DNA from: Pseudofrankia coriaricola
GTDB lineage: Bacteria > Actinomycetota > Actinomycetes > Frankiales > Frankiaceae
NCBI RefSeq assembly: GCF_001854805.1
Contig: NZ_MBLO01000239.1
Location: 62,001 to 126,000, forward strand
DNA: 64,000 nucleotides
Direction: 5' to 3'
Positions within the stretch are counted from its first letter, which is position 1; every line of letters begins with the position of its first letter. The translations under genes were made by a program, and so were the position numbers. The notes below the pieces were generated by a model that ran no database searches, was not told the origin of the DNA, and saw only the letters and a program-made list of their open reading frames with translations. Below, piece after piece: positions 25,108 through 28,740 of this stretch.

Positions 25108-25179
25108 GCCGAAGTAGCTCAGTGGCAGAGCAATCGCCTCGTAAGCGATAGGTCGCGGGTTCAATCCCCGCCTTCGGCT
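25108..25179 (+). tRNA. tRNA-Thr (anticodon CGT)
   Basis: A full cloverleaf: acceptor GCCGAAG/CTTCGGC, D-stem GCTC/GAGC, anticodon stem ATCGC/GCGAT with loop CTCGTAA, variable AGGTC, T-stem GCGGG/CCCGC with loop TTCAATC, discriminator T. Anticodon CGT reads ACG. The CCA end is not encoded. Confidence 0.97.
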
Positions 25180-25190
25180 CGCGCCGGGGT

Positions 25191-25489
25191 CGCCTGCTCG
25201 CAGCCCTGACGGGCCGCTTCGCCATGGGCCGTCATGTTGCCCCGGGGCCGAGCCCCGGACCCCACGCCAAGGGGCTCCGCCCCCTGGACCCCCACCCGGG
25301 TCGCCTGCTCGCAGCCCTGACGGGCCGCTTCGCCAAAGGCCGTCATGTTGCCCCGGGGCCGAGCCCCGGACCCCACGCCAAGGGGCTCCGCCCCCTGGAC
25401 CCCCACCCGGGTCGCCTGCTCGCAGCCCTGACGGGCCGCTTCGCCAAAGGCCGTCATGTCGCCCCAGGGCCGAGCCCCGGACCCCACGG
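25191..25489. repeat. 111-bp tandem repeat, 2.7 units
   Basis: The unit starts at 25191, 25302 and 25413, with only a few differences. Each unit includes GC-rich inverted segments (CCCCGGGGCCGAGCCCCGG and GGGGCTCCGCCCC). Since 111 is divisible by three, both strands stay open across it, which gives false 100-aa frames. It starts 12 bases after tRNA-Thr. Confidence 0.92.
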
Positions 25490-25892
25490 CCCCGGCTCGC
25501 CGTTCATGCTCGACCTCGGGCGATGACCACGCGGCATCCCGCCTCGCAGCCCGACTCCCCCGAGGTCCGAGAGTCTGGCCCTTATAGCCGGGGCAGACAT
25601 GATCGCTCTTTTCCTCTCCCCTTTTGGGAGCTGGCCGGGGGTTCGGGGGTGGAATTCATTTCCCGGCCGGATCCGCTCGTGGCGGGTGGGATCGACCACC
25701 GGAAAGAGAGTGATTGACGGACCATGCTCAGGGTGCTGAACCGAGGATGAACCGATCGGTGGCAGGCTGATGGTGGTCGGTCGCAAGTAGTTATAGAAGA
25801 ATGACCAGGTCGGCGGACTGAACGTCGGCTGGTTTTGCTGCTCGGCCGGCCGAAACCGAAAGGTGACATCACCACCAGACGGAGGAACCGCC
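25490..25892 (+). promoter_or_regulatory. Upstream region of first Gly/Trp-rich precursor gene
   Basis: About 400 bases. The part at 25738-25790 resembles 26216-26268 upstream of the second precursor, so the promoter region was duplicated with the gene. The palindrome GGTGACATCACC is at 25862-25873. The first part (25490-25730) shows no gene. Confidence 0.6.
25862..25873 (+). promoter_or_regulatory. Palindrome GGTGACATCACC ahead of precursor 1
   Basis: A 12-base inverted repeat 19 bases before the ATG and just before the GGAGGA ribosome binding site. The identical sequence precedes precursor 2. It may be an operator or a small 5'-UTR hairpin. Confidence 0.6.
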
Positions 25893-26048
25893 ATGAAGAC
25901 TGCATACCACGCACCGACCCTCCACGACGCCGGATCCTTCCACGAGCGCACCGGATGGGGCGGCGGCGGATGGGGCTGGGGCGGCGGCTGGGGCGGCGGA
26001 TGGGGCTGGGGCGGCGGCTGGGGTGGCGGCTGGGGCTGGGGCTGGTAG
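25893..26048 (+). CDS. Gly/Trp-rich RiPP precursor peptide 1 with lasso-type leader
   Basis: 51 aa from ATG 25893, with GGAGGA 8 nt upstream. The leader (1-20) has Tyr5, Pro8, Leu10, Gly14, Phe16 and Thr20, exactly the YxxPxLxxxGxFxxxT pattern recognised by the RRE protein of lasso-peptide systems. The remaining 31 residues are only Gly (21) and Trp (10). With no Asp or Glu the core cannot form a lasso isopeptide ring. No B or C lasso enzymes are nearby. It is a member of a duplicated pair. The next enzyme gene is a FAD hydroxylase. That it is modified on Trp is inference. Confidence 0.82.
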   Translation: MKTAYHAPTLHDAGSFHERTGWGGGGWGWGGGWGGGWGWGGGWGGGWGWGW

Positions 26049-26086
26049 GCCCACCCACTCGCAACCGCGTCGTCCTGACGCATCCC

Positions 26087-26114
26087 GTGGCGGTGGCCCG
26101 TCGGCCACCGCCAC
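26087..26114 (+). terminator. Hairpin after precursor 1
   Basis: GTGGCGGTGGCC (26087-26098) pairs perfectly with GGCCACCGCCAC (26103-26114) over a 4-base loop. There is no U-tract. The same stem follows precursor 2. Confidence 0.7.
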
Positions 26115-26332
26115 CCCCATCTCCGCGGCCCTGGCCCAGGGACCTGCCGTTCGGGTTGCCCCCTGAGGAAATTCACCGGTCCCTATAGGTCTGAGGCAGT
26201 TATGCGAAGCGTAGTGAACCCTCGGTGAACCGAGGGGTGGAAGGCTACTAATGGTCGGTTACAAGTGGCGCGACTAGCCGATTAGAACCGGTGGGTTGTT
26301 ACCCAGATTTGTACGCGGATGGCCCGCCGAAT

Positions 26333-26344
26333 GGTGACATCACC
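26333..26344 (+). promoter_or_regulatory. Palindrome GGTGACATCACC ahead of precursor 2
   Basis: Identical to the element before precursor 1 and placed 18 bases before this ATG, directly upstream of GGGAGGA. Conservation while the flanks have diverged argues for function. Confidence 0.6.
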
Positions 26345-26362
26345 ATAGAGGGAGGAACCGCC

Positions 26363-26539
26363 ATGAAGGCTATGTATCGGGCGCCGGCCCTCCAGGACGT
26401 GGGGTCCTTCCGCGAGCGAACCCACGGCTTTAGCTTTGGCGGCTTCGGCGGCTTCGGCGGCTGGGGCTGGGGCTGGGGCTGGGGACGCGGCTGGGGCTGG
26501 GGACACGGCTGGGGCTGGGGACGCGGCTGGGGCTGGTAA
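26363..26539 (+). CDS. Gly/Trp-rich RiPP precursor peptide 2 with lasso-type leader
   Basis: 58 aa from ATG 26363. The leader again has Tyr5, Pro8, Leu10, Gly14, Phe16, Thr20 (MYRAPALQDVGSFRERT). The core has four Phe in GGF-type units, then W-G repeats broken by single Arg or His residues. It also contains exactly ten Trp and no Asp or Glu. It is a paralogue of precursor 1; the leader is better conserved than the core, as expected for a shared recognition enzyme. The hairpin at 26580-26607 and the FAD hydroxylase follow. Confidence 0.82.
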   Translation: MKAMYRAPALQDVGSFRERTHGFSFGGFGGFGGWGWGWGWGRGWGWGHGWGWGRGWGW

Positions 26540-26579
26540 GCCCACCCATCCCGCAACCGCGTCGTCCTGAAGCATCCCT

Positions 26580-26607
26580 GTGGCGGTGGCCTGTCGGCCA
26601 CCGCCAC
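26580..26607 (+). terminator. Hairpin/attenuator between precursor 2 and the hydroxylase gene
   Basis: GTGGCGGTGGCC (26580-26591) pairs with GGCCACCGCCAC (26596-26607), loop TGTC. It ends 23 bases before the hydroxylase ATG, so partial read-through could give many precursor transcripts and few enzyme transcripts. Confidence 0.65.
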
Positions 26608-26630
26608 CTCTATCTCCGAGGTTCCTTCCT

Positions 26631-27896
26631 ATGAAGATCGTCTGCGTTGGCGGTGGCCCGGCGGGGCTGTACTTCGCGATCCGCGCAAAGCTGCGGGATT
26701 CCAGCCACGACATCGCCGTGCTCGAGCGCGACCGGCCGGGGGCCACCCACGGCTGGGGGGTCGTCTACTGGGAACCGCTACTAGGCAGCTTGTTCCGCGC
26801 TGACCCGGTCAGCGCGCGCGAGCTGCGGGCGGCGTCGACCCTGTGGCGGGGCCAGCACGTCAGCGTCGGCGGTCCACGACCCGCCTACCTGCCTGGCTAC
26901 GGGTACAGCATCCAGCGCGCGACCCTGCTCGACGTGCTCGCGCGCAGGGCGGTCGAGCTGGGAGTCGACGTGCGGTACCGCCGGCATGTGGCCGACGCCG
27001 ACGACCTGAGCGCGCTTATGGCGGAATCCGATCTGGTGGTCGCGGCTGATGGGGCGAACAGCCAGGTACGACGGCTCGCCGGCTTGGATGCCTTCGGCAC
27101 CCAGCTCGAGGTCGGCGCCAACCAGTACATCTGGCTGGGCACGGACCGGCGATTCGAGAACTTCATGTTCGCGTTCGAGCGCACGGAACCCGGTTGGATC
27201 TGGTTCCACGCCTATCCGTCGGCCGCCGACATCAGCACTTGCATCGTCGAGTGCGCCCCCCAGACCTGGACCGGTCTGGGTCTCGACCGGCTGAGCGACG
27301 CGGATGGCTGTCGGCTCCTGGAAGGCATCTTCGACGGGCCGCTCGGCGGCCATCGGCTGATCAGCGACTGCCACGGCCGGCCGGCACGCTGGCAACATTT
27401 CACCCACGTCACCAATCGCACCTGGCAGCACGAGAACGTCGTGCTGCTGGGCGACGCCGCGCATACCACCCATTTCACCCTGGGCTCGGGCACGGCGCTC
27501 GCGATCATGGACGCGATCATGCTCGAACGGTTCCTCCACGGACGCGCGGACGTCACCACGGCGCTGCGGGACTTCGACCGGTCCGGCCACGCGGCGCTGG
27601 GGCCGCTGCAGAACCGGGCTCGGATCAGCATGTCGTGGTTCGAGGGTGTCGACGGCCAGCTCGACCGCCTGTGCGACGCCACCCAGCCCGCGGAACGCGG
27701 GCGCCCGCCCGTCGACGAGGCACCGGACCCTCTGGCGTTCGCGTTCAGGATGGCCACCCGACAGGGCGACGAGACGCCCCTGCGCTACCAGATTCTGCGA
27801 GCGGCCCAGCTGCCGGCGGTACAGGCCATCGACCAGCAGGCGGGCCGCGGCACACGCTGGCTGCTCGACAAGCGCCGCGCGCTGGTCACCCGGTAG
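26631..27896 (+). CDS. VioD-like FAD-dependent aromatic hydroxylase
   Basis: 421 aa from ATG 26631. The N-terminal FAD site MKIVCVGGGPAGLYFAI and the second FAD motif LLGDAAHTTHF (near 272-282) are intact. NQYIWLGT, the HAYPSAADISTCIVEC segment and PLGGHRLISD resemble the tryptophan/indole hydroxylase VioD. The same family includes salicylyl-CoA and anthraniloyl-CoA hydroxylases, so an acyl-CoA substrate is the alternative. Its start lies 23 bp after the precursor-2 hairpin. The peptide next door offers many indole rings, hence the inferred role as a RiPP-tailoring monooxygenase. It is cytoplasmic, with no transporter or protease nearby. Confidence 0.8.
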   Translation: MKIVCVGGGPAGLYFAIRAKLRDSSHDIAVLERDRPGATHGWGVVYWEPLLGSLFRADPVSARELRAASTLWRGQHVSVGGPRPAYLPGYGYSIQRATLLDVLARRAVELGVDVRYRRHVADADDLSALMAESDLVVAADGANSQVRRLAGLDAFGTQLEVGANQYIWLGTDRRFENFMFAFERTEPGWIWFHAYPSAADISTCIVECAPQTWTGLGLDRLSDADGCRLLEGIFDGPLGGHRLISDCHGRPARWQHFTHVTNRTWQHENVVLLGDAAHTTHFTLGSGTALAIMDAIMLERFLHGRADVTTALRDFDRSGHAALGPLQNRARISMSWFEGVDGQLDRLCDATQPAERGRPPVDEAPDPLAFAFRMATRQGDETPLRYQILRAAQLPAVQAIDQQAGRGTRWLLDKRRALVTR

Positions 27897-28197
27897 CTCT
27901 CACGGCCGTGGCCACCCGGCCCGGCCTGGCAGCCCGGCGGCAACACCGACGCCGGGAGGGCGGAGGGTGCGGTCACCCGGCGCCGGTGTACTGGCAGTTG
28001 GCCGGTCCGGCACATCGCGGCTGGCCGTGGCAAGTCCGGCGCCGAGGAGGCAAGCCGCCCAGGCGACGAGACCGCGGCCTGCGCGCGATGACGACGGAAT
28101 GGACGCGATGACGACGGAATGGAGATGACAACGGAATGGAAAGGCCCCGGTGGTTCGAAGAACCAGCCGGGGCCTCGCGATACGGGGTGGCGACGAG
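27897..28197. other. Convergent intergenic region with small repeats
   Basis: About 300 bases between the hydroxylase and ppa. A short repeat around GATGACGACGGAATGGA occurs two and a half times at about 28085-28138, followed by the hairpin at 28142-28175. No gene. Confidence 0.5.
28142..28175. terminator. Bidirectional terminator hairpin
   Basis: AGGCCCCGGTGGTTC (28142-28156) pairs with GAACCAGCCGGGGCCT (28160-28175) with one bulged base and a 3-base loop. It lies between the convergent hydroxylase and ppa genes. Confidence 0.75.
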
Positions 28198-28740
28198 TCA
28201 GGCGGACTGGGCCTCGTCGACGACCGGCTCCGCCGGTTCCGCGTGCTCGTCCGCCTCGGTCTCCATCCGCTTGACCGAGGCGAGGATCTCGCGCTCGGCG
28301 TCGGCGCGGCCGACCCAGCTCGCACCCTCGACCGACTTCCCGGGCTCCAGGTCCTTGTAGACCTCGAAGAAGTGCTGGATCTCCAGCCGGTCGAACTCCG
28401 GCAGGTGACGGATGTCACGCAGGTGCTCCTGGCGGACGTCGGCCACCGGCACGCAGAGGACCTTGTCGTCCGGGCCCTTCTCATCGGTCATCTGGAACAT
28501 GCCGATCGTCCGGCAGCGCACCAGGCAGCCCGGGAAGGTGGGCTCCTCGAGCAGCACCAGCGCGTCCAACGGGTCGCCGTCGCGGCCGAGAGTGCCCTCG
28601 ATGAACCCGTAGTCGGACGGGTAGTGGGTGGAGGTGAACAGCATCCGGTCGAGCCGGATCCGCCCCGTGTGGTGATCCATCTCGTACTTGTTGCGCTGCC
28701 CCTTGGGGATCTCGATGGTCACGTCGAACTCGAGGTCCAC
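28198..28740 (-). CDS. ppa: Inorganic pyrophosphatase, soluble family I
   Basis: 180 aa from GTG 28740 with AGGGAG upstream; longer starts are poor. It hydrolyses pyrophosphate to phosphate in the cytoplasm. [42 protein letters not shown] and [12 protein letters not shown] carry the metal- and substrate-binding Glu, Lys, Tyr and Asp residues of the family. An extra acidic C-terminus of about 20 residues ([19 protein letters not shown]) is present. Together with HppA the genome has both soluble and membrane enzymes. Confidence 0.96.

Follow-up and report, generated by a model that had tools for sequence, protein, structure and literature searches.

Architecture of the cassette

The 64-kb window analysed here, by which we mean the whole stretch of Pseudofrankia coriaricola (Frankiaceae) DNA, carries a cassette of two short precursor genes followed by a gene for a flavin adenine dinucleotide (FAD)-dependent hydroxylase, all on the forward strand (Table 1). 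The pairing of such peptides with such an enzyme recurs in several bacterial families; judged from sequence, it suggests a so far undescribed type of secreted, modified peptide. A preliminary description of this DNA had reported two short genes with shared leader residues and ten-Trp cores upstream of a FAD hydroxylase gene, which the sequence and its translations bear out; the start it gave, 25738, falls upstream of the first gene, which begins at 25893.

Both precursors carry Tyr5, Pro8, Leu10, Gly14, Phe16 and Thr20, and their predicted cores start at residue 22, each with ten Trp and zero Asp or Glu. Core 1 consists of Trp and Gly and nothing else (30 of 30 residues), as the earlier wording "Gly/Trp-only" had it, but this wording does not extend to core 2, in which 10 Trp and 19 Gly among 37 residues are accompanied by Phe, Ser, Arg and His. 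The leader of precursor 1 matched PF19397 (DUF5972) above the cut-off (8.9e-7) and NF033521 (lasso_leader_L3) below it (0.0046), and that of precursor 2 matched PF19397 below the cut-off (0.0022) and NF033521 above it (4.8e-6); no literature match for DUF5972 was found. Lasso leaders, according to PMC10368454, have YxxPxL at −17 to −12 and a Thr at −2 as recognition element. Counted from a core beginning at residue 22, Y5, P8 and L10 of the precursors stand at −17, −14 and −12 and Thr20 at −2, in agreement with that spacing, and Y5, P8, G14, F16 and T20 are invariant in an alignment of 18 chosen leaders. The precursors thus combine a lasso-type leader with the encoded leader-plus-core arrangement of a ribosomally synthesized and post-translationally modified peptide (RiPP).

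Core positions 7, 8 and 9 are free of acidic residues in all 38 Trp/Gly precursor rows from Frankiaceae (37 distinct genes, with some further genes at contig ends omitted from the count), and core residue 1 is often not Gly. Because Asp and Glu are missing from positions 7–9, a macrolactam ring is not possible for these cores, and the earlier statement that the lasso route is closed to them stands. A strict Trp/Gly composition rule returned exactly two open reading frames (ORFs) in the window, the two cassette precursors, and a single ORF in 55 homologue loci (L086–L140, 690,940 bases), located in L088, a member of the same hydroxylase clade. Since the rule is nearly silent over so much homologous sequence, the Trp/Gly genes are not chance occurrences.

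The best curated matches of the hydroxylase were salicylyl-CoA 5-hydroxylase (5.1e-98) and VioD (3.1e-54), both below cut-off. The former scored 329 bits against an equivalog cut-off of 1078, with residues 1–341 aligned to positions 1–343 of a 768-position profile that also spans a second, C-terminal part. The VioD model scored 184 bits against an equivalog cut-off of 620, which places the enzyme in the same superfamily and not as VioD itself. Among solved structures VioD ranked first both by profile (4.3e-67 vs 1.4e-23 for the next family) and by Foldseek (3.1e-33 vs 8.5e-23 for the next family), and the earlier label "VioD-like" is therefore apt. An AlphaFold2 model obtained with 45 sequences in the alignment had a predicted local distance difference test (pLDDT) score of 92. 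VioD acts on a small bis-indole intermediate.

The two precursor genes have a 5' region in common that includes a 13-bp element. Exact copies of the element number two in the whole 11.2-Mb genome, both at the cassette precursors, a confinement that leaves a genome-wide regulon unsupported; variants precede the precursors of two other genomes (G005 and G006). No plain sigma-70 promoter was found in 25500–28200. Hairpins follow both precursors, and a comparison of folding energies with shuffles for 23 Frankiaceae precursor downstream regions gave z scores of −2 or lower in 17 of the 23, the other six being weak (−0.5 to −1.9). Upstream of the cassette, directly 3' of a tRNA-Thr gene (25108–25180), lies a 111-bp unit present in 2.7 copies with 97% match (25187–25488).

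Table 1 Features of the cassette in the window.
Feature	Position	Strand	Remarks
Precursor gene 1	25893..26048	+	51 aa; lasso-type leader, then core of 10 W + 20 G; orthologues in relatives
Precursor gene 2	26363..26539	+	58 aa; lasso-type leader, then Gly/Trp/Phe-rich core with 10 Trp
VioD-like FAD-dependent monooxygenase gene	26631..27896	+	421 aa; proposed peptidyl-Trp hydroxylase
13-bp 5'-untranslated region (5'-UTR) element GGTGACATCACCA	25862..25874	+	Directly 5' of the precursor 1 ribosome-binding site
13-bp 5'-UTR element, second copy	26333..26345	+	Before precursor 2
Hairpin, 12-bp perfect stem	26087..26114	+	3' of precursor 1; possible terminator or attenuator; z −2.8 vs shuffles
Hairpin, 12-bp perfect stem	26580..26607	+	Between precursor 2 and hydroxylase; z −1.8, weak alone

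The peptide–hydroxylase pair across genomes

In a search of 58 genomes, the hydroxylase was found at 58–100% identity in 22 of the 35 Frankiaceae, and in all 22 it is adjoined by a Trp/Gly core. The upstream genes, one or two, are complete with leader and core in 18 of these; in the other four only the terminal part of a Trp/Gly core is present, at a contig boundary (L026, L030 and L032) or in a damaged assembly (L016). Because the repeats break assemblies, precursor counts are lower bounds. The genome G013 has an extra homologue of 53% identity, with no Trp/Gly precursor in the 4.2-kb stretch around it. When the neighbourhoods of 17 of the 22 loci were compared, the hydroxylase was the sole neighbour family present in all 17. 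The next commonest neighbours, response regulators (10 of 17 loci), are near-identical only inside the genus of the window and 34–37% identical to those of Parafrankia, and are thus paralogues between genera. A single biosynthetic cluster around the cassette was considered and found to be unsupported, with only the hydroxylase common to all 17 loci. A wider sample of 393 genomes of the class, searched with an E-value ceiling of 1e-90, gave matches of 53% identity or more in Frankiaceae alone, and the other 13 matching genomes had homologues of 44–52% identity with alignments reaching residue 340–375.

The distribution of the pair beyond Frankiaceae was examined on a tree of 100 hydroxylases, made by a quick method with support from the Shimodaira–Hasegawa-like approximate likelihood ratio test (SH-aLRT) only and with proteins cut to 430 residues; the scan of named genomes covered the best 80 of at least 579 loci. 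Long fusions (L035, L119 and L132), duplicates of included genomes (L061–L063, L068, L069 and L073) and loci from which no ORF was obtained (L205, L208 and L209) were left out. A Trp/Gly gene is present in the locus in 37 of the 44 rows of one clade (SH-aLRT 98) and in 0 of the 56 rows outside it, with some rows being stretches of about 3–4 kb (among them L033, L034, L102, L203, L204, L206 and L207) in which a remoter Trp/Gly gene would be missed. The label changes six times on the tree, against a mean of 30 in shuffles, and none of 500 shuffles was as low. Thirty of the 37 labels were assigned by the strict composition rule and seven by hand (L016, L026, L030, L032, L065, L070 and L085), and ten out-of-clade rows (L123, L124, L127, L128, L130, L134–L136, L139 and L140) were scored separately by the same strict rule. 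The preliminary description had called for a check of co-occurrence and had named a hydroxylase lacking the peptides in most relatives as the outcome that would count against it; because the peptide–hydroxylase link is conserved and clade-specific, that outcome does not describe the clade; outside it, the homologues had no Trp/Gly gene in the stretches covered.

Fifteen of the 37 linked rows are non-Frankiaceae, namely five Streptomycetaceae, six Nocardia, a Pseudonocardiales metagenome-assembled genome, Saccharopolyspora hirsuta, Pseudonocardia kujensis and Geodermatophilus ruber, and their Trp/Gly peptides have no lasso leader motif. In Streptomycetaceae and Nocardia a hydrophobic, Ala-rich Sec-type N-terminus (by eye) precedes the Trp/Gly repeats and the hydroxylase gene follows. 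At L064, L084 and L085 the order is short Trp/Gly peptide, ATP-binding cassette (ABC) exporter and hydroxylase, with overlapping stop and start codons; the peptides of L064, L074 and L084 had no Pfam or NCBIfam match at E up to 0.01. Since hydroxylases of one clade are paired elsewhere with other N-termini, the lasso leader is a delivery variant of Frankiaceae and not the essence of the system. The earlier proposal of a new RiPP type that borrows the lasso leader is upheld as regards the peptide–hydroxylase link but not as regards the leader, which does not define the group given the Sec-like N-termini or ABC exporter of other families. Selection keeps enzyme and peptide as a unit, and the peptide N-terminus follows the export route of the lineage. 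The Trp/Gly peptides at L064 (position 3820) and L246 (Saccharopolyspora oryzae), from unrelated loci, have a common N-terminus, MKI(A/S)TIF, and a Cys end; this N-terminus is a possible second leader type.

Leader-processing genes at a second locus

Lasso clusters comprise a precursor (A), a cyclase (C), a discrete RiPP recognition element (RRE) protein (B1), a peptidase (B2) and an ABC exporter (D). The lasso B2 family scored above cut-off in all 22 cassette genomes and in nine of the 13 other Frankiaceae. In the six genomes with both on one chromosome-size contig (G001, G002, G006, G012, G016 and G029), the B2 locus and the cassette are separated by at least about 54 kb. The gene order at this second locus is Streptomyces antibiotic regulatory protein (SARP) regulator–A–C–B1–B2–D in L153, L155 and L166, and the same minus A and C in L059 and L161. 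The C protein of G001 has an asparagine-synthase family match, the macrolactam cyclase model being below cut-off. The genome of the window (G000) retains the SARP regulator, B1 (NF033530, 5.2e-31), B2 (NF033537, 9.9e-34; both above cut-off) and D, a finding by which total loss of the lasso machinery was rejected. Its cyclase C was not found by our search and its A gene is reduced to a tail-like remnant without leader and ring part.

A cyclase was found in 14 of the 22 cassette genomes, so that the notion of a second-locus cluster always devoid of cyclase was discarded, and was not found in the other eight (G000, G004 and the six Parafrankia searched). All eight retain B1 and B2; D is present in seven, and the stretch of the eighth ends at a contig end. 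In the six Parafrankia in which no cyclase was found, B2 shows purifying selection, with a median dN/dS (ratio of nonsynonymous to synonymous substitution rates) of 0.16 over 15 pairs, compared with 0.20 in six cyclase-bearing Frankia, values that refer to the tblastn-aligned stretch only (93–120 codons for Parafrankia B2). Since eight cassette genomes keep B1 and B2 with no cyclase found, the Frankiaceae Trp/Gly precursors are likely processed in trans to linear peptides. The earlier suggestion of processing "in trans" fits the arrangement in the genome of the window, where B1, B2 and exporter stand at another locus and both the cyclase and the lasso precursor leader are apparently lost.

Additional Trp/Gly precursors that carry the same lasso-type leader but are not linked to the cassette occur in ten of the 22 cassette genomes. 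In the 4–11 kb around these unlinked precursors we found neither a hydroxylase nor B1, B2 or a cyclase, and one of the stretches contains an ABC transporter weakly like D. In the genome of the window the leader model finds just the two cassette leaders.

Two genomes of the Frankiaceae genus g3 that have no cassette, G015 (L210, 6694–7330) and G018 (L211, 7473–8120), have loci with a SARP-like regulator, a lasso-leader peptide, B1, B2 and D, and no cyclase was found in either. The G018 core is Tyr/Arg/Gly-rich without acids and is perhaps another linear product; that of G015 contains Asp residues. Because such loci occur in genomes lacking the cassette, cyclase-free use of the leader machinery is not confined to Trp/Gly peptides. 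The Frankia lasso cores at the second locus (L153, 11797–11967; L166, 5175; others) contain GWGWG-like stretches and a VIII-Gly-rich tail that resembles the start of Parafrankia Trp/Gly cores, and comparison of these sequences suggests that the Trp/Gly precursors arose from a lasso precursor. In Nocardia elegans (L077, 9028–13179), and likewise at L078, a lasso-type cluster lies about 2 kb downstream of the Trp/Gly–hydroxylase pair with one gene between; at L077 it comprises, by eye, a leader-bearing precursor, a 612-aa cyclase-like protein, a PqqD-like protein and an ABC protein.

A proposed tryptophan-hydroxylating module and its relatives

We regard as probable a two-part module in which a Trp/Gly-repeat polypeptide is paired with a dedicated FAD monooxygenase of the cytoplasm. 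Before the polypeptide leaves the cell, the enzyme would hydroxylate Trp indoles in it, probably many. Peptidyl Trp is the most likely substrate of the enzyme on the sequence evidence, and from the same evidence we infer the position and extent of hydroxylation and the order of steps; by analogy with VioD, C5 would be the expected site on the indole. In Frankiaceae, B1 would bind the YxxPxL of the leader and may in addition bring the precursor to the hydroxylase, much as CanB1 helps CanE (PMC9266682). B2 would then cleave one residue past the conserved Thr, leaving this Thr at −2, and the ABC protein D would export a linear peptide rich in hydroxytryptophan. These three proteins would be supplied in trans from their separate locus for all Trp/Gly precursors of the genome, linked or unlinked; comparable products would be made in other actinobacterial families with the help of a Sec-type signal or of an ABC exporter encoded alongside. 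The product may act at the cell surface or outside the cell through redox activity or cross-linking, in the manner of proteins containing 3,4-dihydroxyphenylalanine (DOPA). More tentatively, and with rather less confidence than doubt, we propose an undescribed bacterial class of poly-hydroxytryptophan polypeptides, Trp/Gly repeats oxidised by VioD-family enzymes and exported by the route of each lineage as an extracellular material, redox-active or able to cross-link itself, comparable to adhesive proteins rich in DOPA; its Frankiaceae version would have taken over the lasso leader machinery, with the cyclase lost in several lineages.

Several observations weigh against the module or parts of it. 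Both the peptide products and their hydroxylation are read here from genes. An RRE hidden in the hydroxylase was considered and rejected, the C-terminal 80 residues being helical in the AlphaFold2 model with no RRE-like winged helix apparent. Seven of the 44 clade rows have no linked Trp/Gly gene: L079, L080 and L082 are cut by contig ends, in the L080 genome a Trp/Gly precursor is present at another site (L246), and a linked pair (L065) comes from the same species record as L092, which leaves L076, L081 and L203 (a 4-kb stretch) without explanation. Conversely, G030, G032 and G033 have a Trp/Gly precursor and no orthologous hydroxylase was found in them, the G030 precursor sitting at a contig end. 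As for processing in trans, the cyclase search scored part of the candidates in each genome (21 of 35 in G000), and the median dN/dS of B1 is 0.35 in cyclase-less Parafrankia (71–77 aligned codons) vs 0.15 in cyclase-bearing Frankia. The linkage of cassette and B2, seen in one family, is confounded by shared ancestry, B2 occurring in cassette-free Frankiaceae as well.

Because the salicylyl-CoA 5-hydroxylase model outscores VioD among NCBIfam models, a small-molecule substrate is possible. The Trp/Gly products might then be secreted structural or metal-binding peptides, and the substrate of the hydroxylase might be a small aromatic compound that attaches to these peptides or cross-links them afterwards. 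Homologues outside the clade that have no Trp/Gly gene are in keeping with this. We nevertheless consider it unlikely, as the 17 Frankiaceae loci compared have no third gene in common, Trp is the feature common to peptides of families with unrelated N-termini, and the closest solved structure is that of an indole enzyme.

Frankia lasso cores with a GWGWG-like stretch and the same leader raise another option: the hydroxylase would tailor the true lasso precursor encoded at the second locus (core G-R-W-G-W-G-R-D...), and the Trp/Gly peptides would act as decoys, regulate the lasso RRE or be degenerate copies. Against this, hydroxylase and cassette persist in all eight genomes in which our search, which scored part of the candidates, found no cyclase, including G000, which lost the leader and ring part of its lasso precursor. 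The pair occurs, moreover, without a lasso leader outside Frankiaceae, and we hold this account to be very improbable.

About as improbable is attenuation, in which the Trp-rich ORFs would be Trp-sensing leader peptides as in trp operons, with stalling at Trp codons controlling the hydroxylase via the hairpin and no product role for the peptides, even though a short Trp-rich ORF, a hairpin and an enzyme gene of an indole-hydroxylase family do follow one another at the locus. Attenuation has no need of the residues invariant in the 18 leaders, nor of the Sec-like signals or intervening ABC exporter gene of other families, and Gly is more enriched than Trp in most cores. It would also place a regulated gene directly 3' of every Trp-rich ORF, yet the ten genomes with unlinked copies have no hydroxylase in the 4–11 kb around them, and downstream of some of these copies a comparable inverted repeat can still be seen by eye. 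That the Trp/Gly frames come from GC-rich TGGGGC repeats and are not genes, a view to which the tandem repeats of the core DNA and the position of several cores at assembly breaks lend some colour, is refuted for practical purposes because the non-repetitive leader, together with the start and an upstream purine-rich stretch, is conserved across species, and the strict rule yields no such ORF in out-of-clade loci.

If correct, the Trp-hydroxylating module would extend RiPP chemistry to hydroxylation of peptidyl Trp by a flavoenzyme, possibly at some ten residues in each peptide, and would provide a case of one tailoring enzyme moving among three unrelated export routes and of a lasso leader machinery that persists after cyclase loss and handles linear substrates encoded at scattered sites. 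Three or four small genes would suffice to test each step. No such system was recognisable by title and abstract start among the matches listed from open-licence PubMed Central papers.

The nearest known systems are comparable in part. Lasso peptides encoded by A–C–B1–B2–D clusters, including the genuine Frankia cluster at the second locus, have in common with the cassette the YxxPxLxxxGxFxxxT leader, the discrete PqqD-like RRE B1, the B2 peptidase and the ABC exporter D, with B1 and B2 available to the cassette from the second locus. They differ from the Trp/Gly peptides, whose cores have no ring acid at 7–9 and often no Gly at residue 1, whose precursors are unlinked to B1 and B2 and have a dedicated FAD hydroxylase, and for which no cyclase was found in the genome of the window and seven other cassette genomes. 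Linear polyphosphorylated peptides (LPP) of Bacillota (PMC13381572) have a YxxP-type, lasso-like leader, a discrete RRE, no macrolactam cyclase and a linear product, and are thereby a precedent for the Frankiaceae proposal. Their phosphorylation, their SipW-like signal peptidase as leader peptidase and the gathering of their genes in one cluster set them apart from the lasso-type B1 and B2, the Trp/Gly cores and the VioD-like enzyme found here. According to PMC9266682, canucin offers hydroxylation of a leader-bearing precursor, by the Fe/2-oxoglutarate enzyme CanE acting on Asp with the help of CanB1, and RES-701-2 and RES-701-4 are lasso peptides with 7-hydroxy-Trp, for which ResE is only proposed as hydroxylase; unlike the present system, both belong to true lasso clusters in which one residue is modified each. 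VioD, the violacein indole hydroxylase (PDB 8gqr and 3c4a), is the closest solved relative by profile and fold; the hydroxylase of the cassette differs from it in sequence (27% identity over the Foldseek alignment) and in having a peptide as its genomic partner.

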